Shown here: positions 1 to 16,372 of the stretch, piece after piece
Layout: every line of letters starts with the position of its first letter
Numbering within the stretch: position 1 is the stretch's first letter
NCBI GenBank assembly: GCA_020829485.1
Contig: JAIVFU010000129.1
Span: 1-16,372 of the forward strand
Direction: 5' to 3'
Length of the DNA stretch: 16,372 nt
Source: Nostoc sp. CHAB 5834
GTDB lineage: Bacteria; Cyanobacteriota; Cyanobacteriia; Cyanobacteriales; Nostocaceae
Notes under the pieces: generated by a model
What the model was told of the DNA's origin: nothing
The model's database searches: none
What the model saw: the letters and a program-made list of their open reading frames with translations, nothing else
Position numbers and translations under genes: made by a program

Positions 1-1763
1 ATCTTGATGACATGGACTTTGCGGGCACCACGCGCACGTGTCGCCTCGGTGAGCGCCTGGTAAATCAGCGTGCCGGATGCATCTGCATCGTGGATGCAGA
101 AGAAATAGATTTCCTCCTGTGACTCCCCGATGAGGTCCAGGACATCGCGTGCGGCACGGGAGGCAAATCCCTTGCTAGTGAGCAGAGCGCAGTCGTTGCG
201 CTCGGGCCATCCCGCATCCTTGAGGATGGTGAAAAAGCCTTCTTTCTCGGAGTACAGGATTTTGTTGAACGTCCACGCGGGGCGCTCGTACTTTTCGACG
301 TTCAGGGTACCCAGAGGGATTTCGTCGCCGGTGTGCGGGTGGTAGATGACACCGCGGGCGTCTCGGTACAAGCCGGGCAAATCTTCACCGTTGGAGGCTT
401 CGACGTCGGTGATGACTTGGGCGAAATAGTTGTAATCAGGTTTTTTGCCGAATGTCTGCAGCATGTACGGACGGACAGCGTAAAACAGCTGGCGCAGAGA
501 GTAGCGGTAGGTACCGTCGCCACTGGCTTTCGCAATGGCTGCTGTGAGGTTGTTGGCAATCACATCCCGTTGGGACATGCGCGCGCCATTCTCGGCCACA
601 GCTGTTCGTTTGGCTTTCTTTGCCGCTTTCTCGATGGTTTCAAAAAGAGGGGTCACGAACTGGAAGAGGTCGGGCTCTTTCCCGTCGGTGGTAACCGGCA
701 TGTACGGAGTCGTCACGTTGCACACGATGAACACGGGCTTGCGGCCCACGTCCACCAGATGCTTTAGGCCGCACCCTAGAATGCCCAGCTGGTGCGCCTT
801 TTGGCGCTGTACGTCCACTGTGCCAGTGATAGGCGTGCGGTTCACGAACACTTGAATCGAGTCCTTGACCCCTTCATCTTTCACCTGAACGAAAACATCA
901 ATGCTGAAGGGCAAGGTGGCTGGCAGCCCGCCCCCTTTCAAGGCGATGTTGCCGTTGGTGTGTGCGTGAGCCATTCCGTCGAAGACGTCGCCAATCTTGC
1001 CCAGTACGGAGGGTTTGGGGTCGGAAGAAAGCTGACGGAGTTGGGCCAGGAGTTGGCTTGCTTCTTCACGCGAGAGGGTATTTGCGGTCCTGCTCCCCAG
1101 TTCCTGGGCCTTGCCGGCAGTGATGTCGCGGAACTTCAGCAGCAGTTCGGAGAGCTTCCAGCCCCCGGCCGCTTGGCACATTTCGAAGAAACTGTCGGAG
1201 TCGTACCACCAGGGAGAAGTTTTCCCCTTGTAATGCTTACCAACGTTGGCCAGAAGCTGTGCGTCGGTGCCCCACGTCAGTACGTCATCAGGAACAGGGA
1301 TGTTTTTGCCAAAAGACACCGCGATGAGGGTGCCCGGCTGAGGCTTGCTGGGCACCGCTTGCACATGCGTAGTCCCATCATCTTGCGGGGTCAGGTGGTA
1401 CTGGACCCCGCCCGTTTCGACGTATAGCTTTCCTTGCGATGCTAGAACGGCACCAGCAACTACACGCAATCCATTGCCCAGCGCACCACGGCTCGGGAGG
1501 CGGACCAGTTTAGACGAGGTAAGCGGACGTTTGATGGAAAAGAGTCGGGCCATTTCCGCTTCCCCACCGGGAAGCCCCGGGCCGTCATCCTGAATGAAAA
1601 TCCAGTTGTCTTTGTGGGTGAGCGTAACGTTCGCTCCCGCATCCAGGGCGTTGTCAACAAGCTCTTTGACGACTAGGTGGGCCAACCGCCGTGTTGGGAC
1701 GCCCGCCTTTTGACCCAGCGTCGATACATTACGGAACAGCGTCCAGTCTTCTCTTTCAAACAT
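1..1763 (-). CDS. Single-chain type IIB DNA topoisomerase, topo VIII-like (Top6B-Top6A fusion), 3' end beyond window
   Basis: The frame is open for 587 codons from ATG 1761-1763 to the window edge without a stop. The N-terminal third is a GHKL ATPase. Its N-box is ELVDNALDAGA (residues 34-44), its G1 box DDGPGL (59-64) and its glycine lid RGALGNG (92-98). Residues about 223-262 resemble the H2TH linker of Top6B. Residues about 275-380 look like the transducer domain, with a switch-lysine candidate K362 in DGKEPDL. The C-terminal part is Top6A/Spo11-like. LRQLFY places Y428 where Spo11 has its catalytic tyrosine (VRDIFY in yeast). A Toprim fold follows, with E506 in YSEKEGFF, then TSKGFAS, then D559/D561 in HDADASG. 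Such enzymes cut both DNA strands and pass a duplex in an ATP-dependent way. B-A fusions on plasmids are known as topo VIII. The C-terminus is not visible. The assignment rests on motifs; activity is inferred. Confidence 0.82.
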   Translation of the reverse strand, partial: MFEREDWTLFRNVSTLGQKAGVPTRRLAHLVVKELVDNALDAGANVTLTHKDNWIFIQDDGPGLPGGEAEMARLFSIKRPLTSSKLVRLPSRGALGNGLRVVAGAVLASQGKLYVETGGVQYHLTPQDDGTTHVQAVPSKPQPGTLIAVSFGKNIPVPDDVLTWGTDAQLLANVGKHYKGKTSPWWYDSDSFFEMCQAAGGWKLSELLLKFRDITAGKAQELGSRTANTLSREEASQLLAQLRQLSSDPKPSVLGKIGDVFDGMAHAHTNGNIALKGGGLPATLPFSIDVFVQVKDEGVKDSIQVFVNRTPITGTVDVQRQKAHQLGILGCGLKHLVDVGRKPVFIVCNVTTPYMPVTTDGKEPDLFQFVTPLFETIEKAAKKAKRTAVAENGARMSQRDVIANNLTAAIAKASGDGTYRYSLRQLFYAVRPYMLQTFGKKPDYNYFAQVITDVEASNGEDLPGLYRDARGVIYHPHTGDEIPLGTLNVEKYERPAWTFNKILYSEKEGFFTILKDAGWPERNDCALLTSKGFASRAARDVLDLIGESQEEIYFFCIHDADASGTLIYQALTEATRARGARKVHVIK

Positions 1764-1916: not shown

Positions 1917-2249
1917 TCAGGCTGCAGCTGCTGCAGGCATTCGTCCAGGCTCGATAGCTTTCCAAGCGTCCCACAATGTCATGAGGGCTGTGCGGGCTTT
2001 CGTTGCACCAGCTTTGGATTCAAGCAGCACCATGACCGCTTCGTAGACATCGGCATAGGACCGGGAGAAGGGAATCTTGGGGTCTAGCCCCGCATGGAGG
2101 CCTTCTTGTACGATGACCCGGGCCTTTTCCAGATTTCCGGTGTCGATGTGCTTGATGGCACGCTCATAAAGCAGGTCCACGAGTTTCCAGGGGCTGCTGC
2201 TTTGAACGCTTACTTGTTGGTAGGCGGAAATTCCGAATCCTGTGCGCAC
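1917..2249 (-). CDS. fliS: Flagellin export chaperone FliS
   Basis: The product is 110 aa, slightly shorter than typical FliS (about 125-135). The N-terminal AYQQVSVQSSSPWKLVDLLY (residues 9-28) matches the FliS signature in which YQQ-N-V and SP-L--MLY precede the helical bundle. The C-terminal TLWDAWKAIEPG also fits the family. FliS binds the C-terminal helices of flagellin in the cytoplasm, preventing premature polymerisation and helping export. It is the last gene of the flgK operon, 36 nt after the mini-fliD stop. The start is GTG at 2247-2249; no ATG, GTG or TTG occurs further upstream before an in-frame TAA, and AGGA lies about 10 nt upstream. The C-terminus ends in an alanine run (AAAAA). 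Confidence 0.9.
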   Translation of the reverse strand: MRTGFGISAYQQVSVQSSSPWKLVDLLYERAIKHIDTGNLEKARVIVQEGLHAGLDPKIPFSRSYADVYEAVMVLLESKAGATKARTALMTLWDAWKAIEPGRMPAAAAA

Positions 2250-2285
2250 TTTAAAAAATTCCTGTTTGAGAGGTTGGTTGATGTT

Positions 2286-2960
2286 TTAAGCAAACCAGCT
2301 TTGCCCGGTGTTACCGCCGGCAGAGCCCATGGCTTGCATGAGTTGGTAGTACTGCATGAAACTCTTTTCAGTGCGAGCGTTTTGTTGTTCCACTCGGGCC
2401 TGAACCTTCACCAGTTCTTCTTCGAACCGCTTCACGCGCGAATCATTGCGGCTCGTAGCCGAATCGACCCGCTTGGCCACGAGGTCTACGGTCGAAAGAA
2501 TCTTGTCCAGTACTTCGGCGGAGGGCAGCTCGTCGACCGAACCTGTGAATTCCAGCCCGTCACGGGTTGACTTGATGCCCGCCTTCTTGAACTCCTCTAA
2601 CGTAGTGGTGTCCATCAAGGGGCTGCGCAACTTCAGGGTTGCATCTCGAAGCTCCGAGATTCCGCGCAAAGGGTTTGTCTTATCGGACGTGCCCTTGAGC
2701 AGTTTTTGAACGTCGTTGAACTCCGAAATGAATTTCTGAACAGCGGCCTTTTTTTCCTCAGGCGTAGCGGTTGCAGAACTGATGTTCTTGGCCGCCGTTT
2801 TTAGCTCATCAATGTTGGTCTTGATGTTCTTGAGCGGAGCTTCTTTCGCGGTAACTGTCGCCTTGCTCGCATTCAAGCGAGTGATGGGGACCTGGTTCGC
2901 CGCTTTGAGCTGATTGAGTTGCGTCTGCCCTGCCGCATTCAAGTAGATGTTGTTAGCCAT
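2286..2960 (-). CDS. fliD: Miniature flagellar filament cap protein, FliD-like
   Basis: The product is 224 aa, about half of a normal FliD (roughly 450-650 aa). Residues 12-60 resemble the FliD N-terminal region (D0/D1), a heptad-rich stretch starting QTQLNQLKAANQVPITRLNA. Residues about 100-150 contain a GI-x-x-x-RDGLEFTGS-x-x-EL segment typical of the FliD C-terminal domain. Residues 175-215 form the terminal coiled coil (RVKRFEEELVKVQARVEQ) followed by a short AMGSAGG tail. The variable D2/D3 head domains that normally lie between these parts appear to be missing. FliD caps the growing filament and folds incoming flagellin. The position between flgL and fliS supports this role. AAGGA lies 10 nt upstream of the ATG. 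The assignment rests on domain pattern and context, not on strong overall similarity. Confidence 0.75.
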   Translation of the reverse strand: MANNIYLNAAGQTQLNQLKAANQVPITRLNASKATVTAKEAPLKNIKTNIDELKTAAKNISSATATPEEKKAAVQKFISEFNDVQKLLKGTSDKTNPLRGISELRDATLKLRSPLMDTTTLEEFKKAGIKSTRDGLEFTGSVDELPSAEVLDKILSTVDLVAKRVDSATSRNDSRVKRFEEELVKVQARVEQQNARTEKSFMQYYQLMQAMGSAGGNTGQSWFA

Positions 2961-2973
2961 GGCGGTTCAATCC

Positions 2974-3813
2974 TTACAGGTAGTCCATCAGACGGCGTTG
3001 GTTCAAGTGAACGCTCATGACCTTGAGAACCGATTCGTGCAGCTTCTGGTTCTCGGTCAGCTTCATCATTTCCTCTGTGGGGTCTGCGCTGCGGATACGG
3101 TCAACAGCGGTCTTCTCGCGGTCTTTTCGCATGCCCAGCGCATTGAGTAGCTGGTCGGCAGCGGCGCCTTCAGCGGCCCCATCGGTACGCATCTGCAGCA
3201 GGTTCTCCATAGAGGCGTTGACTGCGTCTACCTGCGCTGTGGCAGGAGGGTTACCCGCTTCCATGGTAGTGATGGTGGACCGCATCGCATTGAAGGCAGC
3301 CATTAGGGGCGTTCCATCCACTGCGCCTGACATCGTGACGCCATCTACATTGATGGAAAAGGGCGTGGTAGTACCGGCATAACTTGCCACTCCCGCCGTC
3401 TTCACGAAAGGTTGGGTATCGGCAGTACCGGAGAACATGTACCCGGAAGCGTCCTTGGAGTTGGCCAAGCTGAAGAAGGCTTGCTCCAGGGCCTTCATTT
3501 CCGGCATGATGTCTTGCAGCTTGTTCAGGCCGGTGGAGGCCATCATGGTCAGTTCATGAAAGCGGCTTGTCACGTCCTGCAGGCTGGACAGCGTTTCGTC
3601 ACGTGCGTCGAGGCGCTCCATGCCCTGTTGCAGTACGCTGACCTTGACACCCGTTTGCGAAATCGAAGCCTGGGTCACGGCCATGCGATTGAAGCCCAGC
3701 GGGTCGTCAGAGGCTCGGTTGATGCGGTTACCCGTGGAAATCCGTTCGCTTGCTGCGTCCATCTTGACACTTGCTGCGTTCAGGGCGGTGATGAGGTTTG
3801 GCTTAATGAGCAT
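2974..3813 (-). CDS. flgL: Flagellar hook-filament junction protein FlgL (HAP3)
   Basis: The product is 279 aa, at the short end for FlgL. It has the flagellin-like N-terminal helix with GNRINRASDDPLGFNRMAV (residues 28-46), the FlgL-specific GYMFSGTADTQPFV (about 125-138) and a C-terminal coiled coil ending LNQRRLMDYL. FlgL sits at the junction between FlgK and the flagellin filament outside the cell and is exported by the flagellar type III apparatus. It lies 17 nt after flgK and 13 nt before mini-fliD, in one operon. The ATG is preceded by an AG-rich stretch (GAAGAAG). The reduced length fits the compact nature of the whole module. Confidence 0.93.
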   Translation of the reverse strand: MLIKPNLITALNAASVKMDAASERISTGNRINRASDDPLGFNRMAVTQASISQTGVKVSVLQQGMERLDARDETLSSLQDVTSRFHELTMMASTGLNKLQDIMPEMKALEQAFFSLANSKDASGYMFSGTADTQPFVKTAGVASYAGTTTPFSINVDGVTMSGAVDGTPLMAAFNAMRSTITTMEAGNPPATAQVDAVNASMENLLQMRTDGAAEGAAADQLLNALGMRKDREKTAVDRIRSADPTEEMMKLTENQKLHESVLKVMSVHLNQRRLMDYL

Positions 3814-3830
3814 GTTTTTCTTCTTCTGAA

Positions 3831-5030
3831 TCAGGCTTTGATGGACAGCAGGGTGCTGAACATGGCGTCAGCGGTCTGAATCACCTTGGCATTGGCTTCG
3901 TAGATTTTTTGGGCAATCTTCAGCGCCAGCATTTCGCTGTCGACGTCCACGCCTTCTTCGGTTTGTTGGCGTTCGTCGATGCCGGCCAGGGTTGACTTCT
4001 TCGCAGACGAAACGCCCAAGGCAGCGGCGGAGTCGATACCGAGAGACCCTGCGGTGGTTGCAAGCCCGGTACCCAGCTTCATGGCGCCATCCAGGGACGC
4101 TTGTCGAGCAGGTGTGTATGCGGAAAGGGCCAGGTCCTCTTTGGTGCCCACGAAGGTCAGGGTGTCGCCATTGAACGAGAACAGGTTGGAGCCCGCAGCG
4201 CCCGCGGCATTGGTACCGGAGGTGTTGAAAGCATTCATGGCCGATGAGAACTGTGAAATTTGGTTGGCCACATCGCCGCGATACTTGACCAGCTCGGTCT
4301 TGGCGTTCTGCAGACCCGCCAGCTTTCCCCCTACTTGCAGCGGCAGCTTCTCGGCGACGTCAGAGTTACTCACCAGGTACTGCATGCCCGACACGAACGA
4401 TGCTGTACCGTTGTCTTCAAAGCGTACTTCCCCGCCGATAAGCTCGGCAGCCTCTCGGCCCACTTGCGCCATCTGGTTTTTCAGCTCGGGGGTCGAGCCG
4501 GTGTACATCACCTGACGATTCAGCTCAGCCAGCTCGTTGAGCTTAGCCATGCCTTGTTTTGTTACACCGTTGATGTCCTTAGAGACGTCCAGCAACTGGT
4601 TGTCCAGGGTTTCCACGCCTTGGTTCACGATGGCAGCAAGGCCCTTGGCTTGACCAACGATGCCTTCGCGCAGACCGGGGGCAGAGGGGGTCAGTCCGGC
4701 AGTGAACAGAAGTTCGTTGAGCTTGCCCATGGAGTCCGTTACCGTCGTAGCTAGGTCGCTGACGGCGTACTCAGCGCTTTGCAGTTCTGAAGCTTGGGTG
4801 GTGCTTTGGGCTGATTCGCCTGCCAGCGTCGAAATGCGGGTGGCAGTCACGGGGTTGAAGCGGTGGATGCTGGATGTGGAAACACCGCCGTTGAAAAGTT
4901 CGGTATGGGCTGCGTCTTGGCGGCGATATCCGGGAGTGTTTGCGTTGGCGATATTGGCCGAGCGAATGTCCATCGCCTGCTGCATCGCACGCATTCCCGT
5001 TGCACCAATGTTGAAAGCTCCGAAGCCCAT
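3831..5030 (-). CDS. flgK: Flagellar hook-associated protein FlgK (HAP1)
   Basis: The product is 399 aa from ATG 5028-5030. AAGGA ends 7 nt upstream of this ATG, which makes it a better start than an in-frame TTG two codons earlier. The N-terminus contains the rod/hook/HAP signature SANIANANTPGYRRQ. The C-terminus ends with the FlgK pattern YEANAKVIQTADAMFSTLL. FlgK forms the first junction ring on the hook, exported through the flagellar channel. Typical FlgK is 450-650 aa, so the central variable domain is reduced. It is the first gene of the flgK-flgL-fliD-fliS operon, and its upstream region shares a two-box element with the flagellin gene. No hook, rod, basal-body or regulator gene is seen nearby. 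Confidence 0.94.
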   Translation of the reverse strand: MGFGAFNIGATGMRAMQQAMDIRSANIANANTPGYRRQDAAHTELFNGGVSTSSIHRFNPVTATRISTLAGESAQSTTQASELQSAEYAVSDLATTVTDSMGKLNELLFTAGLTPSAPGLREGIVGQAKGLAAIVNQGVETLDNQLLDVSKDINGVTKQGMAKLNELAELNRQVMYTGSTPELKNQMAQVGREAAELIGGEVRFEDNGTASFVSGMQYLVSNSDVAEKLPLQVGGKLAGLQNAKTELVKYRGDVANQISQFSSAMNAFNTSGTNAAGAAGSNLFSFNGDTLTFVGTKEDLALSAYTPARQASLDGAMKLGTGLATTAGSLGIDSAAALGVSSAKKSTLAGIDERQQTEEGVDVDSEMLALKIAQKIYEANAKVIQTADAMFSTLLSIKA

Positions 5031-5076
5031 GTCCAAGTCCTTTTTTTAGAGTGGGCCGTTGTTTGCGCCCATACCC

Positions 5077-5112
5077 TTATAGACGGGTCGAACCGGAAAA
5101 ACACCTCGTGGA
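5077..5112 (-). promoter_or_regulatory. Putative flgK promoter/operator sharing two boxes with the flagellin gene
   Basis: Read on the minus strand, box 1 TCCACGAGGTGTTT (5099-5112) is followed by box 2 CCGTCTATAA (5077-5086). The distance from CGAGG to CCG is 17 nt. The flagellin upstream region has TCCGCGAGGTATTT and CCGTCTAAAC with the same 17-nt spacing. An AT-rich stretch lies immediately 5' of box 1 in both. Box 2 ends 47 nt before the flgK ATG. The boxes do not match the usual flagellar sigma28 promoter (TAAA, about 15 nt, GCCGATAA). Whether they are -35/-10 elements or activator sites is unknown. Confidence 0.55.
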
Positions 5113-5144
5113 ATTTAAAAAATTTAGAGAGTATTTCGAGTCCC

Positions 5145-5163
5145 AAGCGGGAGCTTCCCGCTT
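5145..5163. repeat. Perfect 8-bp inverted repeat between divergent flgK and small CDS
   Basis: AAGCGGGA (5145-5152), a 3-nt loop and TCCCGCTT (5156-5163) form a strong hairpin, followed on the plus strand by TCTGTTTGTT. It resembles a plus-strand terminator but no gene ends just before it. It lies 59 nt upstream of the plus-strand CDS, so it may be an operator or a leader hairpin. Function unknown. Confidence 0.5.
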
Positions 5164-5221
5164 TCTGTTTGTTGCCTACACAGGGCTATAGAACATCACT
5201 TTTTTCAAGTTAGGAGTGCCT

Positions 5222-5542
5222 GTGCACAACGCAGAAATTTACGGTGAAGAACTCATCACCAAGGTGACGAACATCTTCAAACGCGAGAACGGTTCGGAGG
5301 CTAAGGTTGTTGTGGAAGCGATGTTTGGCGCTGGGCTGCATCGCTCAGTGGACACCCAGGTGTTTCGACGCGAGGGTCCTGATGCGCAATGGCATCTGTG
5401 TTGCAAGGAGCCTGCCCCTGGTTGGGTGTCTGTCGACCACTACGTTAAGCACGGCAGGCCTGAAATGCTCAAGTACGTGACTTGGGGAGAAATCCTGAAG
5501 ACCTCGGCGCTGATTGGCAAACCCATGTCAGCGCTGCATTAG
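5222..5542 (+). CDS. Uncharacterised small protein, 106 aa
   Basis: I do not recognise this family. The GTG at 5222 is chosen as start because AGGAG (5212-5216) ends 5 nt upstream; a GTG at 5216 overlaps that site. The product is soluble with no signal peptide or membrane segment. It has two adjacent cysteines (HLCCKEPAPGW) and a basic middle (RSVDTQVFRREG). It is transcribed divergently from flgK and followed 16 nt later by a strong terminator, so it forms a single-gene unit. A weak -10-like TATAGA at 5187-5192 is the only promoter candidate. Coding status is supported by the start site, the terminator and sensible amino-acid composition. Confidence 0.7.
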   Translation: MHNAEIYGEELITKVTNIFKRENGSEAKVVVEAMFGAGLHRSVDTQVFRREGPDAQWHLCCKEPAPGWVSVDHYVKHGRPEMLKYVTWGEILKTSALIGKPMSALH

Positions 5543-5557
5543 GCCGAGTTTGATTCC

Positions 5558-5585
5558 AAGAGCAGCTCCGGCTGCTCTTTTTGTT
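5558..5585 (+). terminator. Rho-independent terminator
   Basis: AAGAGCAGC (5558-5566), loop TCCG and GCTGCTCTT (5571-5579) form a perfect 9-bp stem followed by a T-rich tail (TTTTTG). It lies 16 nt after the stop of the plus-strand CDS at 5222-5542 and separates it from the downstream HAD gene. Confidence 0.9.
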
Positions 5586-5613
5586 GCGGGGCATGGCCTT
5601 CCTATACGCACGA

Positions 5614-6045
5614 ATGAATTCAATCCTGTTTCTTGATTTTGATGGCGTGCTCTCTCCCGGCAACTCGGGAACGCTCCGGCATGCCCCTGACCTCGCCCGG
5701 CTGCTCGACCCCTACCCCCGCGTGGGACTCGTTCTGACAACCAACTGGCGTGCACGCGAGTCGCTTTCAGATTTGGCGGACTACCTCCGCCCAGCACTGG
5801 GGCGCCGGGTGTATGACAAGACGCCAATTCTTCCGGGTGGCGAAGACCGCGGAGGCCGTCAAATGGAAATCGAGCATTGGCTTGCCGAAAACCCGACAAA
5901 GGACTGGCTCGCCATAGACGACACCGCGAGTCTGTTCCGCCCCGATTGCCCCTGGCTTTTCTTGACGGAGTCCAAGGATGCGCTCGACAGGGCTGCACAG
6001 GTGCTGCTAGCCTTGCGTTTGGGTGAAGTTTTTGGCAGGAGCTGA
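5614..6045 (+). CDS. HAD-like phosphatase, similar to HAD domains of RNA-repair (Swiss Army Knife) proteins
   Basis: The product is 143 aa. Residues 5-13 (LFLDFDGVL) carry the HAD motif I aspartates D8 and D10. TTNWR (42-46) is motif II in the form typical of the HAD_SAK-type family. DRGGRQMEIEHWL (78-90) and LAIDDTASLF (99-108, D102/D103, motif IV) complete the pattern. Such proteins are Mg-dependent phosphohydrolases; the substrate is unknown. The start is uncertain. ATG 5614 puts the HAD fold at the N-terminus, but ATG 5593 in the same frame would add 7 residues, and neither has a clear ribosome binding site. The gene begins just after the 5558-5585 terminator and converges on the flagellin gene. 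Confidence 0.8.
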   Translation: MNSILFLDFDGVLSPGNSGTLRHAPDLARLLDPYPRVGLVLTTNWRARESLSDLADYLRPALGRRVYDKTPILPGGEDRGGRQMEIEHWLAENPTKDWLAIDDTASLFRPDCPWLFLTESKDALDRAAQVLLALRLGEVFGRS

Positions 6046-6061
6046 GCCCCACACGGGCAAG

Positions 6062-6095
6062 AAAAAGCCCTCTGCACGGATGTAGCGCAAAGGGC
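6062..6095 (-). terminator. Flagellin gene terminator
   Basis: On the minus strand GCCCTTTGC pairs with GCAGAGGGC (9 bp with one G-T wobble, 11-nt loop) and is followed by TTTTTC. It lies 37 nt after the flagellin stop. Confidence 0.8.
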
Positions 6096-6106
6096 GGGGC
6101 GTGAAC

Positions 6107-6124
6107 GGCTCTTCGAAAAGAGCC
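6107..6124 (-). other. Second hairpin in the flagellin 3' untranslated region
   Basis: GGCTCTT (6107-6113), loop CGAA and AAGAGCC (6118-6124) form a perfect 7-bp stem between the flagellin stop and its terminator. It has no T-run, so it is more likely an mRNA-stabilising 3' structure than a terminator. Confidence 0.55.
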
Positions 6125-6131
6125 TAGCCGA

Positions 6132-6950
6132 TTAGCGCAGCAGCTGCATTACTGCCGAGGGACGCTGGTTGGCTTGTGCCAGCATCGCCGTGGAGGCTTG
6201 CTGCAGCACCTGGGTGCGTTGCATCGAGGCCATTTCCGTTGCATAGTCGGTGTCCATGATGCGGCTGCGGGCCGAGTCCAGGGCGCCCGATTGCGAGGTC
6301 AGCCCCGATTGGGCGGACTCGAAGCGCGACATGGTGGCACCGTACAGAGCGCGTTGCTCGGTCAGAGTGTCCATGGCCGTGGTGATTTCGTCCATCGCGG
6401 TCTTTGCCGCTGCCGCTGTATCGACAGCTCCTCCGGTAACGGCCGTGATGTCGGCGTTTGCGGAAAGGTCAATGGTGGTCACTGTAATGGTATCCGTCGA
6501 AGCGGCACCTACAATGAATTCCTTCGCGCCGGCGTCGCCTGCCAGTACTTTTTGGCCGTTGAAGTCTGCGCCAGCAATAGTACGAGTCACTTCCTTAGCC
6601 AGCTCCTGAAATTCTGTGTTCAGCTTTGCGCGGTCATCGTTGCTGTTGGTGCCATTGGCAGCCTGCGTTGCCAGCTCCTTCATGCGGCTCATGATGTCCG
6701 TCACTTGGCCCACGGCTGCGTCAGCAGCTTCCGCCAACGACAGGCCGTCACCGGCGTTGCGTTCAGCGACCTTCATGCTCTTCAGGTTGGTCTGCATGCG
6801 GGTGGCAATTGCCAGGCCGGCTGCATCGTCTTTCGCCGAGTTGATTCGCTGACCCGTCGACAGCCGATTCATCGACTCATCGGTCTTGATGGTGTTCTTG
6901 TTCAGGGATGCGACGATGTTGTTGACGTTGTTGTTAACGCTGAGGGCCAT
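6132..6950 (-). CDS. fliC: Flagellin (filament subunit)
   Basis: The product is 272 aa, a compact flagellin with little variable region. Residues 1-140 are the conserved N-terminal D0/D1 helices, with LSTGQRINSAKDDAAGLAIA (residues 31-50) and MKELATQAANGTNSNDDR. Residues about 145-185 are a short central insert. Residues about 190-272 are the C-terminal D1/D0 helices, with SRIMDTDYATEMA and a final VMQLLR. It polymerises into the filament after export with FliS help. It is transcribed alone: terminator 37 nt downstream, promoter region shared in pattern with flgK. GGAG lies 6 nt before the ATG. It could be a host-type flagellin copy carried on an accessory element. Confidence 0.96.
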   Translation of the reverse strand: MALSVNNNVNNIVASLNKNTIKTDESMNRLSTGQRINSAKDDAAGLAIATRMQTNLKSMKVAERNAGDGLSLAEAADAAVGQVTDIMSRMKELATQAANGTNSNDDRAKLNTEFQELAKEVTRTIAGADFNGQKVLAGDAGAKEFIVGAASTDTITVTTIDLSANADITAVTGGAVDTAAAAKTAMDEITTAMDTLTEQRALYGATMSRFESAQSGLTSQSGALDSARSRIMDTDYATEMASMQRTQVLQQASTAMLAQANQRPSAVMQLLR

Positions 6951-8290: not shown

Positions 8291-8405
8291 CACGTGCGTT
8301 AGACTGGTGGAGGTTTGGGTCTTTAGCCCGGTTTTTAGGATGCCGCGGCCCTCTCTCTCTTTCTCCGGCGTCTGCTCTGACTCTTTTTTAAACTCGGCCG
8401 GCCTT

Positions 8406-9530
8406 ATGCGAAAAATTCTGATTTCAGGTGGACCCGTCCATTCCCACATCGATTCGGTCAAGATTGTCACCAACCGTTTTCGGGGCGGGTTGATGGCGGG
8501 CTTGGCAGAGAGCCTGGCCAACTTTCCAGGTGCGCAAGTGACGTACCTGACAGCAAAGTCGGCACATATCCCGAACGCTGCACTTGCCTCGGGGCTCCTG
8601 AACGTGGTGTTTCATGACGGCTTTGAGGACTACCGCGAGAAAGTGCTTGCGCTGGCCCCCGACCATTCCGACGTAGTGCTGGGCGCGGCCGTCGCGAACC
8701 TCATCCCGGCCAACCCTTGGCCCGGAAAATTCCCAAGCCATGACTACAACGAAGGCGATATCGTGAATGTCCCTTTCAGGGTCACTCCCCGCGTCATCAC
8801 GGAGGTCAAACGCGTCGCCCCTGGGGTGAACCTCTTTGGCTTCAAGCTGCTGTCCGGCGCCCCTCATGCCGAACTGATGAAAGCAGCGTGGCACACCCTC
8901 ATTGCGGGCCGTTGCGCAGCAGTGATTGCCAATGACGCTACCGACTTGCAGTCCAAATACGTTCTGACAAAAGAGGGCGCTGAACATCCTATTTCGAATC
9001 GTGACCTACCCCAATTTCTGTGGGGACTGATGAACCAGTGCTTCTACCGAACTCAAGCTGTCGAGCAGACCCAGTCCCCAGAGAGCCCCCTGGCATTGAA
9101 GCTGAAGTCGTTGATTGCGACCTACAAGGACAAGCACCCTCAGCTGTTTGTCACGACGCCCGACGGAATGATTTTTGGCACCGCCGCAGTGAAGGAGCCC
9201 GGCGCCACGGGGTTCTGGACTACTGGTCGGGGCAAGCGTGAATTGGATGAGCTGGCATACGTGCAGGCGGTGCATCACGACACGTTGTGTGTATTCACGG
9301 AAGGTGGGAAGTCCTCTCTCAACGCACCCTTGCTCGACAACATTTTCCAGATGAACCCGGAGGCGGTGGCTATCGTTCATGGGCATATCCAAGACGAATC
9401 GCTCCCTACTCTTCCTTACGCTACGCCGGGAACGGTGGAAGATAGCCTTCGTTGCGTACGGGGTTCTTTCAACGTGTTCCGCCACGGCTGTTTCTTGGTC
9501 CTCAATGCACAAGGCGAGGTGATTCGATGA
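8406..9530 (+). CDS. CoaB-like (phosphopantothenoylcysteine synthetase fold) and class II aldolase fusion protein
   Basis: The product is 374 aa from ATG 8406, where the fold begins (RKILISGGPVHSHIDSVKIV). Residues 1-215 resemble the CoaB half of Dfp. ISGGP...IDSVKIVTNRFRGG matches the AGGT...DPVR-ISN-SSG nucleotide-binding start. GAAVANLIP (93-101) corresponds to AAVADxxP, followed by GFKLLSG (145-151) and VIANDATD (173-180). Residues 225-374 resemble class II aldolase/adducin domains. SSLNAPLLDNIF precedes a metal-binding VHGH (H325, H327), and the third histidine is H360 in FRHGCF. The CoaC decarboxylase half is absent, and CoaB is not normally fused to an aldolase. In-frame starts upstream (8307, 8340) are possible but add a low-complexity stretch. 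The methyltransferase gene overlaps its stop. Biochemical role unknown. Confidence 0.8.
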   Translation: MRKILISGGPVHSHIDSVKIVTNRFRGGLMAGLAESLANFPGAQVTYLTAKSAHIPNAALASGLLNVVFHDGFEDYREKVLALAPDHSDVVLGAAVANLIPANPWPGKFPSHDYNEGDIVNVPFRVTPRVITEVKRVAPGVNLFGFKLLSGAPHAELMKAAWHTLIAGRCAAVIANDATDLQSKYVLTKEGAEHPISNRDLPQFLWGLMNQCFYRTQAVEQTQSPESPLALKLKSLIATYKDKHPQLFVTTPDGMIFGTAAVKEPGATGFWTTGRGKRELDELAYVQAVHHDTLCVFTEGGKSSLNAPLLDNIFQMNPEAVAIVHGHIQDESLPTLPYATPGTVEDSLRCVRGSFNVFRHGCFLVLNAQGEVIR

Positions 9531-10192
9531 TGTTCTACAAGACCTATCCTGCGCACAGTGTGTACGCGAGTTTGTACGCACGCTTCTTCAAAGAAGAGCG
9601 CTTGAACGAGTTGCTGGCGTTGGCGGGACCCCTTGATAAAAAGACGGTCGCAGACCTTTGTGGAGGGGGCGGCCGCCTGTCTCTGGCTGCAAAGGCAGCT
9701 GGTGCCCAGGTCACGTTGGTCGACGAATCCCGGCTGATGACGAATGGTGTCAAAGGTGTTCCTGTTGTCAACAAGAGGGTTTCCGCATACCTGCTCTTTT
9801 CGGTAAAGAACGAGTCCCTGGACGGAGCATTCTGTCAACAAGCGGTGAACTACTGGCTGACGCCTTCGACCGCCTCTTCGTTAGCGGCGGCCCTGAAGCA
9901 GGGAGGCTTTTTTGTTTTCAACACGTTCAACAAGAAGCCTTCCGCGGCTCCGCTCGTCAAGCAATACACCCTGGACGGGGTCTCCTTTGTGGAAACAAAC
10001 TGGCTTGTCGATGACCGGATGGTGCATCACATCCAGGTGCGGGAGGGCGAGGAGCCCCACTTCACGTCATTTCAGTGGCTTTCTCCTGAGGAGTTCCGGG
10101 AGATGCTGAGCCCCTATTTCAAAGTGACTGAGCACGTGTCAGGGCCTTCGTCCATCTACGTCTGCACTCGAAACGACAAGCCGGCCGCTTGA
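9527..10192 (+). CDS. SAM-dependent class I methyltransferase
   Basis: The product is 221 aa. Residues 41-51 (VADLCGGGGRL) form methyltransferase motif I, the SAM-binding glycine loop, and LVDES (64-68) gives the acidic residue after strand 2. QQAVNYWL and AALKQGGFFVFNTF fit later motifs of the Rossmann-fold core, and SPEEFREMLSPYF fits the C-terminal region of small-molecule methyltransferases. The start ATGATG overlaps the stop of the CoaB-aldolase gene (ATGA), so the two are translationally coupled and probably act in one pathway, methylating either a product of the aldolase/ligase protein or a downstream metabolite. The substrate cannot be read from sequence. It converges with umuC, 21 bp away, with no clear terminator between them. 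Confidence 0.82.
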   Translation: MMFYKTYPAHSVYASLYARFFKEERLNELLALAGPLDKKTVADLCGGGGRLSLAAKAAGAQVTLVDESRLMTNGVKGVPVVNKRVSAYLLFSVKNESLDGAFCQQAVNYWLTPSTASSLAAALKQGGFFVFNTFNKKPSAAPLVKQYTLDGVSFVETNWLVDDRMVHHIQVREGEEPHFTSFQWLSPEEFREMLSPYFKVTEHVSGPSSIYVCTRNDKPAA

Positions 10193-10213: not shown

Positions 10214-11521
10214 TCAATAGGCGTTGACCTGGGGCACGTCGGCCCATCGGGTGGTGTAGTGGGGGCTCAGGAGCATTCGCTTTGTCTTCCATGCTACGGC
10301 TATCCCGTTCCCGCCCAGCTGGAGCACGTCCCTGCCCATCTTCCGGTTGATGGCGTCCAGGGTGTCCATGAGCTTTCGGGCCCGACCGTCTTCCATGGAG
10401 CTGGAAGCACATAGCGCCAAGGACTGCTGCGCCTGGCTCGCGGGATGGATGTCCGAGAGCATGACGCCAGCCTTTTTGTACTCAAAGCCGCTTCGGTACA
10501 TCCGTCGAACCGCGCGTATCGCAAAGTCCGCAAGCACGCGGCTGTCAGAGGTCGCACAGGGCAGCGCAAATTGAAGGCTCGGGTAGTACTGGGGGCTGTC
10601 GGGCTTGAAGGGATTTGTTTGCAGGAAAACCATCATGGAGCCTGCCACCGCGCCTTCCTTGCGAAGCTTTTCGGCCGCTTTGCACGCATAGGTGCTGGCC
10701 GCCTGGCACAACTCCTCTGGGCAGGTTACCTTTTTCCCAAAAGAACGACTTCTCATGATTTGTTGCTTGGCCGGCGCCATCAGCTCCAGAGGTAAGCAGC
10801 TCACCTCTCTCAGCTCTTGGACCGTCTTTTCGAGGACCACGGAAAACTGCCTTCGAATCAGCGTGGGCTCTGTCGCGCGCAGCTGAAAGACGTTTTCGAT
10901 ACCCATTGCTTGCAAGGAATCCTTCAGGCGCGAGCCCACGCCCCAGACGTCATCCAACGCAAGGTTTTGAAGCCAATGGTCTTGCTGCGCTCGGGTGAGT
11001 TGTGTCCAGTCGCAGACCCCCTCGAACTCGGCGTTTTTCTTGGCCAAGTGGTTGGCCAGCTTCGCGAGCGTCTTGGTGGGGCCCACCCCTACGCATACCG
11101 GGAGCCCCACATCGCGCAGGACCCGTGCGCGGATGGTCTTTCCGTAGGGCACAAAGCCCTTTGGATGAAGCCGCTGCAGCGTAGAAAAGTCGAGGAAAAC
11201 TTCATCGATGCTGTACTTCTCCACCATCGGACTGAATTCGCTGAGCACCGTGCACACCCGGTTGCTCATGTCCGCGTACAGCTCGTAGTTGGAGGACAAG
11301 GCCTGGATTCGGTACCGGGCTGCTTCGACCTTCAGCTTGTGCCAGGGAGCACCCATAGGAACGCATCCAAGAGCCTTGACCTCCTTGCTTCGAGCCACCA
11401 CGGCGCCGTCATTGTTCGACAGCACGACGATTGGGCGGCCCTGCAATCGGGGGTCGAAAAGCTGTTCGCAACTCGCGTAAAAGTTGTTGCAGTCCACCAA
11501 GGCAAACAGGGTCGAGTTCAT
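10214..11521 (-). CDS. umuC: Error-prone DNA polymerase V catalytic subunit UmuC (Y family)
   Basis: The product is 435 aa, close to E. coli UmuC (422). FALVDCNNFYASCEQLF (6-22) carries the first catalytic aspartate D10. EKYSIDEVFLDF (101-112) carries D106/E107. VGVGPTKTLAKLANHLAKK is the Y-family palm/thumb signature. SRSFGKKVT and the C-terminal KRMLLSPHYTTRW match UmuC. With activated UmuD it copies past DNA lesions. The E. coli beta-clamp peptide QLNLF corresponds here to about QQSLAL, which lacks the phenylalanine. The start ATG overlaps the umuD stop (ATGA), giving translational coupling. Confidence 0.95.
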   Translation of the reverse strand: MNSTLFALVDCNNFYASCEQLFDPRLQGRPIVVLSNNDGAVVARSKEVKALGCVPMGAPWHKLKVEAARYRIQALSSNYELYADMSNRVCTVLSEFSPMVEKYSIDEVFLDFSTLQRLHPKGFVPYGKTIRARVLRDVGLPVCVGVGPTKTLAKLANHLAKKNAEFEGVCDWTQLTRAQQDHWLQNLALDDVWGVGSRLKDSLQAMGIENVFQLRATEPTLIRRQFSVVLEKTVQELREVSCLPLELMAPAKQQIMRSRSFGKKVTCPEELCQAASTYACKAAEKLRKEGAVAGSMMVFLQTNPFKPDSPQYYPSLQFALPCATSDSRVLADFAIRAVRRMYRSGFEYKKAGVMLSDIHPASQAQQSLALCASSSMEDGRARKLMDTLDAINRKMGRDVLQLGGNGIAVAWKTKRMLLSPHYTTRWADVPQVNAY

Positions 11522-12144
11522 TCGGGCCGCCGGGCCTTCTGCAGCCGCCCGAAGCGGCCCACGACTACGCCCCAGACCTCAAATTGGCTTTCGGGTGTGA
11601 TGACTAGGGGTGGGTACTCAGGATTACCCGCTATCAGGCGGACTCGGTCGGCGCGCATCTGCAGCTGCTTGACCAGCCTCTCTCCGTTCAAGAAGGCGAC
11701 GACGACATCCCCATTTTTGGGGTCAATGCTCTTGTCGCAGACCAGGAAGTCCCCATCGTGAATCCCGAAGGAGTCCATGGAGTCTCCTTTGACCTGAAAG
11801 AAGAAGGTGCTAGCCGGCTTGTCAATCAGGTACTGGTTGATGTCCAGGGACCGGTCTTCGTAGTCCTCGGCAGGGGAGGGGAACCCCGCGGAGACCTTCA
11901 CCAGCCCAAGGGGCCTCAGGAGGGGTGGCGCGTTCAGGTCGGGCACCCAGGTGCCGGGTAGGGGGCGCCAAACAGGCGCCGTTTTGGAAGCACGGTGGGT
12001 TTCAAGCAGGCGAACTACGTCCCACTTCAGACTGACGGGCACGCGGAGAGTTGTGGTGGGCTCGCCGTAGGCGGCCTTGCGGCCTGCGCCAGAGCGGGAG
12101 CCCCCTCTAAGGGGGGCGGGAGCAGGGCTGTTTGAATTCGTCAC
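11518..12144 (-). CDS. umuD: UmuD-type S24 autoprotease with long N-terminal DNA-binding-like extension
   Basis: The product is 208 aa, against 139 in E. coli. The C-terminal part is classic UmuD. The self-cleavage site is A86-G87 in SAGFPSPAEDY, the nucleophile S122 is in KGDSMDSFGI and the general base K159 is in GERLVKQLQ. The first ~85 residues are extra. They contain RGGSRSGAGRKAAYGEPTTT and LRVPVSLKWDVVRLL, a basic stretch followed by a pattern like a ribbon-helix-helix. Extended UmuD proteins such as UmuDAb of Acinetobacter act as repressors, so this one may regulate as well as activate polymerase V. The start is GTG 12142-12144; a TGA upstream excludes longer forms. No LexA box (CTGT-N8-ACAG) is visible. 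A GC-rich 6-bp hairpin lies inside the coding region at 12100-12117. Confidence 0.92.
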   Translation of the reverse strand: MTNSNSPAPAPLRGGSRSGAGRKAAYGEPTTTLRVPVSLKWDVVRLLETHRASKTAPVWRPLPGTWVPDLNAPPLLRPLGLVKVSAGFPSPAEDYEDRSLDINQYLIDKPASTFFFQVKGDSMDSFGIHDGDFLVCDKSIDPKNGDVVVAFLNGERLVKQLQMRADRVRLIAGNPEYPPLVITPESQFEVWGVVVGRFGRLQKARRPE

Positions 12145-12194: not shown

Positions 12195-12686
12195 TTAAGT
12201 CTTGGGCTTTACGCTGCTTGAGGCTGGTGCGGGCGCCGGGGGCGCCGGGGGCACAATCCCCATCAATTTGTACGCAGCGGGCAGGTACTTCTGAAGGATT
12301 TTCAGCATTGCATCCGCTTCCTGCTTTGAAATCGGCGGTTTTGGTGAGCCGTAGGACGTGCCATTGCGCCGGCTATGCGCGCGTGTGACGAAGGACTGTT
12401 CATCAGGGGTTAGTCCAAGGGATGCCGAGACACACTGTATGGCCAAGTTTCGGCCGGAATCTTTGGAGCGAACCTCATAGAATTGAAGCACTGCATGCAC
12501 TATTTGGAAGTAGCCCTCGTATGCCAAGGTGAATGTTTGCATAGGGAGCCCCCTGTCCAGCTGGGTCGCAGCCTCTAGGTAGTTTTCGGCATTCGTCAAA
12601 ATGACTGGTAGGGCCCCAGCATCAGGAAGAATCGGTTCGAGGGAGTTGGTTCTAATCAGGTTTTCGTAGTTGGCCGGACGTTGCAT
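12195..12686 (-). CDS. HEPN-like protein, partner of the adjacent nucleotidyltransferase
   Basis: The product is 163 aa and all-helical in appearance. AEGYFQ-type residues (LAYEGYFQIVHAVLQFYEV, about 53-71) and RAHSRRNGTSYG (about 102-113) resemble HEPN proteins, whose active site is usually R-x4-6-H. Here an RRN-x-x-x-Y version is present and the histidine after the arginine pair is missing, although one histidine (H104) precedes it. HEPN proteins paired with MNT nucleotidyltransferases form toxin-antitoxin modules in which HEPN is an RNase toxin neutralised by the partner. Its ATG overlaps the nucleotidyltransferase stop by one base (TGATG). The C-terminus is a Pro/Ala-rich tail (PPAPPAPAPASSS). 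umuD follows 50 nt downstream. Confidence 0.65.
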   Translation of the reverse strand: MQRPANYENLIRTNSLEPILPDAGALPVILTNAENYLEAATQLDRGLPMQTFTLAYEGYFQIVHAVLQFYEVRSKDSGRNLAIQCVSASLGLTPDEQSFVTRAHSRRNGTSYGSPKPPISKQEADAMLKILQKYLPAAYKLMGIVPPAPPAPAPASSSVKPKT

Positions 12687-13243
12687 CAGACTATCCTTAG
12701 GGTGGGCCCCTTAGCTATTTGAGAGATGACTGAGTCTGACTCTACCAGTGCAATCCATTCCGAAGGTTCATAAAGCGAAAAATTGATGGGCCGACCCAGG
12801 CTCGTCTCAAGGGTGTGCAGCGCTTCGGACACTTTGAGCAGAGGCGCGTCTCCAACGACTATCAAGTCGATGTCGCTTTGCGCGCCGTCCGTGCCCTTGG
12901 CGACCGAGCCAAATACGAATGCGGATTCGATTTCAGTCTCAAAGGGGGCCAGCGCCTCTCGAAGGGGCTCCACCACGGCAAACGTTTTGCGAGCAATGCT
13001 GCTTAACTCGGGATAGAGAACGAAATTCGGATTTGCTCTGATGCTCCGTTGGGCTCCTCGTCGTTCGTCTTCCAGTAGCACTCCCACCGCCACCAGGCGG
13101 TCGACTTGCTTTTGAGCGCTGCCTCGGCCACTATCCGCCAGGCGCAAGAGGTCTCGCAGGCTGAAGCTGCGCTCAGGGTGTAGAAGGGTGGCCGCCAGAA
13201 CTCTTTGCAGACTCGGCGTAAACAGGAAGTCAGCAACGCTCAT
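12686..13243 (-). CDS. Winged-helix plus MNT-type nucleotidyltransferase, likely antitoxin/autorepressor
   Basis: The product is 185 aa. Residues about 8-66 form a winged helix (LLHPERSFSLRDLLRLADS, then QKQVDRLVAVGVLLEDERRG). Residues about 105-160 form a minimal nucleotidyltransferase. FGSVAKGTDGAQSDIDLIVV supplies the G-S motif (112-113) and the metal aspartates D124 and D126. The usual third acidic residue is not evident in GRPINFSLYEPSEW. In MNT-HEPN modules the nucleotidyltransferase AMPylates the HEPN toxin. The N-terminal winged helix suggests this protein also represses its own operon through the inverted repeat at 13260-13296, which overlaps its promoter. It heads a run NTase-HEPN-umuD-umuC. 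Confidence 0.82.
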   Translation of the reverse strand: MSVADFLFTPSLQRVLAATLLHPERSFSLRDLLRLADSGRGSAQKQVDRLVAVGVLLEDERRGAQRSIRANPNFVLYPELSSIARKTFAVVEPLREALAPFETEIESAFVFGSVAKGTDGAQSDIDLIVVGDAPLLKVSEALHTLETSLGRPINFSLYEPSEWIALVESDSVISQIAKGPTLRIV

Positions 13244-15312: not shown

Positions 15313-16372
15313 TTGCTGCGCGCCCCTAAAATCCGCTTGGACCCCAACCTCGCTCAGGCAAATCACTTTGCCCGAGCCTGCGGTACCGCGCGCTTCGCCT
15401 GGAACTGGGCGCTTTCCGAGTGGCAGCGGCATTACGAAGCCCATCTGGCCGACCCCTCTTTCCCCAAGCCCTCTGAGGGGGCCTTGCGTCGGCAGCTCAA
15501 CGCCATCAAGCGCGAGCAGTTCCCCTGGATGCTGGAGGTGACCAAGTGCGCCCCTCAAGAGGCCATCCGGGCCTTGGGTGTGGCGTACAAGAACTGGTGG
15601 GCTTCCCTTTCCGGCAAACGTAAAGGGCCCAAGGTCAAGGCTCCTACAGTCAAAAGAAAGGGGCAGCGGGACTCCTTCAAATTCGATGAGAAGTTTGCGG
15701 TTGACGGTTGCCGCGTGCGTATCCCCAACCTCGGGTGGGTGCGCATGCGAGAGCCGTTGCGCTTTAGTGGCTCCCTCAAAGGGGCCACGGTCTCTCGCAC
15801 CGCCCACGCCTGGTTCATCTCCATCCTGGTGGAGACCGAAGACGTTCCCCTGCCCAGCAAAAGCCAAGCTGCGGTCGGTGTGGACCTCGGAGTCAGTGCG
15901 CTGGCGGTGCTGAGCACGGGGAAGCCGGAGGAAGGGCCCAAGGCCCTTCGCATCCTGCTCGGCCGGCTCAAGCGGCTCAGTAGAGCCCACAGCCGCAAGG
16001 TAAAAGGGTCTGCTAACCGACGGAAGTCCGCACAGGCCCTAGCCCGGTTGCATTGGCGTATCTCTTGTGTACGGAATGATGCGCTTCACAAGCTCAGCCA
16101 CCGGCTCACCCGAGACTATGCCTGGATTGCCATTGAGGACCTGAACGTCAAGGGGATGATGGCTAACAGGCACTTGTCCCTCTCCCTTGCCGATGCCTCC
16201 TTCGGTGAGCTGCGTAGGCAGCTCACGTACAAGGCGGCCCAGCGGGGCGTGCATCTGGCGGTCGTAGACCGCTGGTACCCGAGTTCCAAGAGCTGCAGCG
16301 CCTGTGGCGCTGTCAATGAGGCGCTCACCTTGGGCACCCGAGTGTGGGTGTGTACTGCCTGTGGTGCAACTC
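15313..16372 (+). CDS. tnpB: IS200/IS605-family TnpB RNA-guided nuclease, 3' end beyond window
   Basis: The frame is open for 353 codons to the right edge. The N-terminal KIRLDPNLAQ, then ARACGTARFAWNWAL, is the typical TnpB start. The RuvC-like aspartate is in VGVDLGVSAL (codon 15883-15885) and the glutamate in IAIEDLNVKG (codon 16135-16137). A zinc finger, CSAC (16294-16305) and CTAC (16351-16362), follows; the last catalytic aspartate lies outside the window. TnpB is an omega-RNA-guided DNA nuclease that helps retain the transposon. No tnpA is seen upstream, as in IS1341-type elements. The start is unclear. TTG 15313 is the best usable codon, because an in-frame ATG at 15286 is followed three codons later by TAA. 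Confidence 0.9.
   Translation, partial: MLRAPKIRLDPNLAQANHFARACGTARFAWNWALSEWQRHYEAHLADPSFPKPSEGALRRQLNAIKREQFPWMLEVTKCAPQEAIRALGVAYKNWWASLSGKRKGPKVKAPTVKRKGQRDSFKFDEKFAVDGCRVRIPNLGWVRMREPLRFSGSLKGATVSRTAHAWFISILVETEDVPLPSKSQAAVGVDLGVSALAVLSTGKPEEGPKALRILLGRLKRLSRAHSRKVKGSANRRKSAQALARLHWRISCVRNDALHKLSHRLTRDYAWIAIEDLNVKGMMANRHLSLSLADASFGELRRQLTYKAAQRGVHLAVVDRWYPSSKSCSACGAVNEALTLGTRVWVCTACGAT

Follow-up and report, generated by a model that had tools for sequence, protein, structure and literature searches.

The Topoisomerase VIII Gene

The window, i.e., the whole stretch of DNA analysed here, is the 16,372 bp contig JAIVFU010000129.1 of the Nostoc sp. CHAB 5834 assembly GCA_020829485.1. A gene on the minus strand at its left end (positions 3–1763, with the ATG at 1763) encodes the N-terminal 587 amino acids of a protein which, judging from its sequence, is almost certainly a topoisomerase VIII (topo VIII), a type IIB topoisomerase made of a single chain. 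The reading frame was open through all 587 codons and then ran off the left contig edge, which cuts the C-terminal end. In the protein listing, the longest contig for the cluster of the window protein itself also measures 16,372 nt. The window thus appears to be a complete metagenome contig, and this part of the protein cannot be read here. Two Pfam domains scored above their curated cut-offs, HATPase_c at residues 27–125 (E = 1.7e-7) and TOP6A-Spo11_Toprim at residues 502–571 (E = 7.8e-7), which places the domain observation far beyond chance. The domains followed each other in the order GHKL ATPase, H2TH, transducer, 5Y-CAP winged helix with Y428 and first part of the Toprim domain with E506, D559 and D561, indicating that a B part and then an A part are fused in one chain. 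The initial annotation, made from the letters alone, had proposed a single-chain type IIB topoisomerase of this kind, and the Pfam domains, catalytic residues and folds found in the one frame bear it out. Its numbering of Y428 and of the three Toprim residues was exact, the transducer lysine corresponded to K362 and the N-box to E34, D37 and N38.

The protein search scored 7996 candidates, 1254 of which matched with an E-value up to 1e-3, and the best 120 were listed. In the alignment of these 120 sequences, the query included, the residues E34, D37, N38, K362, R424, Y428, E506, D559 and D561 were invariant (120 of 120), and D59, G61, G63 and H558 varied in one to three sequences. The same invariant positions were observed in an alignment of 46 sequences. 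The 119 listed relatives other than the query measured 726–838 amino acids, from which it appears that approximately 165 amino acids are lacking at the C-terminal end of the window protein.

Structural comparisons brought out both halves of the enzyme. A helical insertion in the predicted model, at residues 163–254, corresponded to the H2TH region. The structural alignment covered 371 residues of Top6B versus approximately 272 of GyrB, and a profile match linked residues 227–410 to 2q2e_B (residues 285–482), a segment which includes the last part of the H2TH region. The helices and the longer alignment to Top6B indicate that the H2TH-like stretch pointed out in the initial annotation is real. 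On the A side, the sequence profile match to Top6A covered the Toprim part only, and the structure search with the window model had 50 rows, all taken by the B half, with Top6A not among them. When a full-length relative was used, Top6A appeared at rank 48, and residues 398–661 of this model aligned to residues 72–364 of Top6A (1d3y), whose catalytic tyrosine we take to be Y103. The archaeal and plant topo VI, composed of Top6A and Top6B, has the folds of both halves in common with the window protein but consists of two subunits instead of one chain, with a structural-alignment identity to Top6A and Top6B of at most 20%. The presence of the B part also separates the protein from Mini-A, a short A part alone. 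Sequence searches for solved structures found topo VI, gyrase and MutL relatives and no topo VIII structure.

The initial annotation had further suggested that the H2TH stretch could set this enzyme apart from more compact versions. This part of the claim was not supported. In the excerpt used here, as for the other papers cited below by PMC number (save the jumbo-phage texts that were searched by term), H2TH is listed for both topo VI and topo VIII (PMC5922973), so that its presence was to be expected, and the protein of the Paenibacillus polymyxa M1 plasmid pPPM1a aligned with the window protein through this region. The enzyme is a further apparently intact member of a known, little-studied kind.

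Relatives of the Enzyme

A tree of 83 topo VIII rows placed the window protein in a group of 24 rows (SH-aLRT 99) with the copies from Hydrogenophaga, from the Pseudomonas megaplasmids pBASL58 and pMPPla107 and from the phage record G003 described below; a Paenibacillus group stood apart. The tree was built by a quick method with a midpoint root, contained several long rows and had no topo VI outgroup, and it is within these limits that the window and pPPM1a proteins share one family tree. The pPPM1a protein is a single chain with the same domain order, shows 44% identity across 99% of the window protein and has the same catalytic residues, but it belongs to another branch and another gene neighbourhood. 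It is presumably the P. polymyxa topo VIII that has been tested biochemically. The Hydrogenophaga copy, from an isolate of H. defluvii, was 69% identical to the window protein.

The two megaplasmid proteins, both annotated as "hypothetical protein", aligned over 99–100% of the length, with identities of 58.6% for pBASL58 (904 kb) and 55.3% for pMPPla107 (972 kb). Unlike the window, both megaplasmids were without a DFP relative (profile search) and without a Flagellin_N match. The pMPPla107 gene (PLA107_RS37785) lies at L002:14992–17268, and a ParC-family match was present on the same megaplasmid. Clusters of 14 and 15 tRNA genes (L001:23318–28970 and L002:21546–24032) were observed some kilobases from the topo VIII genes of the Pseudomonas megaplasmids. 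pMPPla107 is described as altering the sensitivity to nalidixic acid, a quinolone, by an unclear mechanism for which its parC/parE genes were pointed to (PMC8544880), and topo VIII is named at none of the places where that paper uses the word topoisomerase. The topo VIII of a megaplasmid with an unexplained quinolone effect is a side lead.

The distribution of the family was uneven. The initial annotation had called fused B–A enzymes rare, a word that must be qualified: 1254 of the 7996 scored candidates matched, but in a sample of 398 genomes from one phylum only three had a match (at most two candidates scored per genome), one being the centre genome and one partial. In a second phylum, one of nine genomes matched, the centre genome itself. 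Seven of 72,556 plasmid records had a match, five of them over at least 80% of the length. A scan of viral contigs with the single protein found no close relative, and the alignment-based scan found seven loci, one of which, L055 on G003, is the only one where phage structural genes were checked.

No universal neighbour emerged across 61 topo VIII loci (open reading frames of at least 100 amino acids), the largest neighbour cluster being present in eight of them and corresponding, by one scanned representative, to an integrase. A cluster found in six loci (L017, L022, L023, L045, L059 and L060; four Bacillota and two IMG/VR contigs) consisted of a large protein matching the PF05183 RNA-dependent RNA polymerase family (L017:3066–6371) in a Pfam scan of one representative. 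PADLOC gave no defence-model match for topo VIII.

Genes Shared with Large Phages

A pair of overlapping genes on the plus strand is located near the middle of the window. The first (positions 8406–9530, the start codon being our own reading) encodes a CoaB-like DFP-domain protein of approximately 374 amino acids, and the second a methyltransferase (9527–10,192, again with our own start, in an open reading frame listed from 9452). Searches with the DFP protein used positions 8403–9530 or 8307–9530. The protein matched the uncultured 485 kb phage LR745208.1 with 44.8% identity over 99% of its length, and a 462 kb phage with 26.3% over 49%. In LR745208.1, the methyltransferase follows the DFP gene as it does in the window. 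The alignment-based scan yielded 11 DFP loci on viral contigs, ten of which matched over nearly the whole length and lay on contigs of 25–485 kb (four above 200 kb). The methyltransferase was downstream in the same order in ten of the 11 loci, at a distance of approximately 1.2 kb in L093. Since the scores of L073 and L074 were the same as those of LR745208.1 and these look like the same phage, approximately nine distinct DFP versions are represented.

No DFP match was found in the 72,556 plasmid records, nor any DFP relative by profile search in pMPPla107, pBASL58 or pPPM1a. The 398 genomes of one phylum (up to four candidates scored per genome) gave no full-length match and three weaker N-terminal ones (E from 8e-12 to 4e-16). 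The pair was seen on large phage contigs, and its DFP member neither on plasmids nor, at full length, in the genomes sampled.

The link between topo VIII and phages came from the IMG/VR record 3300024239_000355 (G003; 195,192 nt), whose topo VIII (L055) is 60% identical to that of the window and which also encodes the DFP–methyltransferase pair and a distant TnpB. Tail-fibre-like, major-head-like and endolysin-like genes were located within 21.5 kb of its topo VIII stretch, and a two-part terminase, a baseplate-like protein, a tail protein, helicases and ribonucleotide reductase elsewhere on the record. Topo VIII does therefore occur on a jumbo-sized phage record. G003 differed from the window in having no Flagellin_N match and no umuC relative that could be found. 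The two parts of its terminase large subunit are separated by homing-endonuclease-like genes (L068:6339–11,342). An identical sequence to its topo VIII is listed as protein P0037, whose longest contig measures 869,618 nt, which would be exceptionally large if it were the same phage.

When the 19 window proteins were compared by tblastn with 1.89 Mb from ten records, some covered in part, only DFP, the methyltransferase, TnpB and topo VIII were found, plus flagellin and FlgK in G409, a 94.5 kb contig classed as viral.

The Flagellar Genes and the Rest of the Window

Between topo VIII and the DFP pair, two parts shared with phages, lies a reduced set of flagellar filament genes (positions 1917–6950), all on the same strand as topo VIII: fliS (1917–2249, 110 amino acids), fliD (2286–2960, 224 amino acids, with Pfam matches below the curated cut-off), flgL (2974–3813, 279 amino acids), flgK (3831–5036, 401 amino acids) and the flagellin gene fliC (6132–6950, 272 amino acids, with strong family scores). 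The short FlgK had only ten relatives of at least 35% identity over at least 96% of the length among 7995 scored candidates. They measured 387–407 amino acids and one, on another contig, was 97% identical; 34 weaker matches measured 423–680 amino acids. Nine distant plasmid records matched FlgK at 26–30%. As single sequences, FlgK, FliC and the window protein p13338 had no match in the viral contigs, and FlgL and p7183 had none in the phage records. Flagellin matched 12 phage records, eight of them below 8 kb, and as such short records may be host DNA the 12 were not counted as evidence. The FlgK alignment found one locus in the viral contigs, L062 on G409, where a flagellin is adjacent to a short FlgK (L062:9081–10,951), with ribonucleotide reductase, Hsp70, Hsp20, helicase and exonuclease genes as neighbours. 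The phage nature of G409 is unproven: the reductase, Hsp20, exonuclease and helicase matched PHROGs, the virion matches were weak and Terminase_6N, the sole terminase family searched, gave no match.

In the interval separating fliS from topo VIII, an inverted repeat with two 21 nt arms, 81% complementary and 10 nt apart (1858–1909), possibly marks the end of the flagellar transcript; it is absent from the output of the terminator scan. A promoter-like site on the minus strand, TTGATT-17-TATAAT (1793–1821; ten of 12 positions matching), lies approximately 30 bases upstream of the topo VIII ATG; it is a weak one, two such sites having been found versus 1.6 expected in the 3.9 kb scanned. With the repeat and this site between the two genes, topo VIII may have its own transcript.

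To the right of the DFP pair, the window contains UmuC/UmuD-type translesion polymerase genes (10,214–12,144) and, at the right edge, a TnpB-type protein (OrfB_IS605, Cas12f1-like; 15,313–16,371). At megablast sensitivity, the only matches to plasmids were stretches of 100–116 bases in umuC and tnpB. A two-gene unit at 12,195–13,243 matched the PADLOC candidate defence system PDC-M05, with component B at 12,195–12,686 and component A, which has a nucleotidyltransferase domain, at 12,686–13,243. Against plasmids, p12195 found one distant record at 32%, and p7183, like DFP, found none. Pfam recognised no replication, partition or transfer family among the 19 open reading frames of the window, five of which had no family at all.

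Origin of the Contig and Activity of the Enzyme

We propose that the contig is a piece of the genome of a huge bacteriophage, with a probability of roughly two in three, because the DFP–methyltransferase pair is shared with large phage contigs and DFP is absent from the plasmid records, and because G003 also has topo VIII. Several observations weigh against this proposal. The closest topo VIII copies among the listed matches (72–74% identical) are on contigs of unknown nature, the tree group includes the two megaplasmid copies, and a tblastn search of 50,697 phage records gave no topo VIII match. Topo VIII was present in none of the nine other viral records with the DFP pair, and a search of nine DFP-bearing records, some of them in part, did not find the UmuC and flagellar genes again. 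G003 is the one record whose phage genes were checked; for the other DFP contigs the viral status is that given by IMG/VR or the depositor. Within the 16 kb window, a fragment, no terminase, capsid or tail gene was recognised, and eight of the ten proteins submitted to the PHROG scan (nine were left out), including topo VIII, DFP and the methyltransferase, had no match.

A part of a proteobacterial megaplasmid like pMPPla107 or pBASL58, in which topo VIII would serve plasmid upkeep and the DFP pair would have been acquired from a phage, appears somewhat unlikely. The two megaplasmid enzymes in the same tree group speak for it, as do reviews which, in the excerpts used, place topo VIII on plasmids and integrated elements and describe it as usually homodimeric and more frequent in bacteria than in archaea (PMC7614492, PMC8185306, PMC8084294). 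Against it stand the absence of DFP relatives from the plasmid records and the named plasmids, the shortness of the umuC and tnpB matches and the lack of recognised replication, partition and transfer families. It is quite unlikely that the window is chromosomal, or an integrated element or prophage, in an uncultured betaproteobacterium that has two sets of flagellar filament genes and received topo VIII with the element. The strong flagellin, the UmuDC and TnpB genes and the Hydrogenophaga relative would fit such a setting; the scarcity of relatives of the short FlgK and the lack of a full-length DFP match in the sampled genomes argue against it. The initial annotation had assigned the enzyme to a betaproteobacterial accessory element. 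The accessory element was right in spirit, with the evidence pointing more to a huge phage than to a plasmid, and for the betaproteobacterial origin there were weak hints only, i.e., the H. defluvii relative and UmuC relatives (54%) that carry the names Azonexus and Accumulibacter.

The enzyme is probably catalytically competent, to judge from its intact motifs. A topo VIII that only cleaves DNA or is inactive, a nuclease or a decaying gene seems unlikely with the nine catalytic and motif positions intact here as in the other listed sequences, and with no interruption of the frame. In favour of such a state, the excerpt of PMC7614492 says that the Ammonifex enzyme only cleaves DNA, independently of ATP, and that inactivation affects many topo VIIIs to varying degrees. 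The plasmid-borne P. polymyxa enzyme relaxes supercoils with Mg2+ and that of Microscilla does so without ATP (PMC7614492). The weak activity of every member of the few tested (PMC7614492) and the unseen last 165 amino acids or so of the window protein both count against competence. A chance fusion of a GHKL ATPase with a Toprim nuclease, two unrelated domains without Top6A similarity, has a negligible probability, since this similarity was found and, throughout the 120 listed sequences, a single chain holds the catalytic residues of the A and B halves.

Proposed Mechanism of Topo VIII and Its Possible Role in a Huge Phage

The strand-passage mechanism below is modelled on topo VI (PMC5922973 and PMC11302465, both in excerpt). 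The enzyme would act as a homodimer whose GHKL domains form the entry gate, closed by ATP, while the H2TH and transducer regions would hold the gate segment and contribute to its bending. Each chain would use its Y428 to attack one of the two strands, and E506, D559 and D561 would coordinate the Mg2+. A second duplex would pass through the cut gate segment, which would then be resealed, and there would be no third gate. In a huge phage, such an enzyme would most likely relax and unlink a genome of several hundred kilobases during replication. The sequence, the intact catalytic residues, the predicted folds, the kinship with topo VIII and the genes shared with large phages are observations; that the enzyme is active and dimeric, that it comes from a phage and what it does there are inferred. 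The odds lean slightly towards a huge phage carrying both its own topo VIII and the reduced flagellar set (flgK, flgL, fliD, fliS and fliC), with which it could re-coat or alter the flagella of its host. The words "flagellin" and "flagell" were absent from the main text of the jumbo- and huge-phage papers searched by term. In the literature searched, beyond which further papers may exist, one paper, on Ralstonia defence systems, combined a term covering topo VI and topo VIII with jumbo phages, and in a wider search the 20 papers listed of 138 contained no topo VI or topo VIII term.

The topo VIII family has very few tested members, and the window enzyme adds an apparently intact one. According to the excerpt of PMC7824862, some jumbo phages have topo IV-like enzymes. 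If the phage setting is true, a type IIB enzyme would be in use besides these in some huge phages, and strand-passage machines of two different origins would serve to unlink very long DNA.
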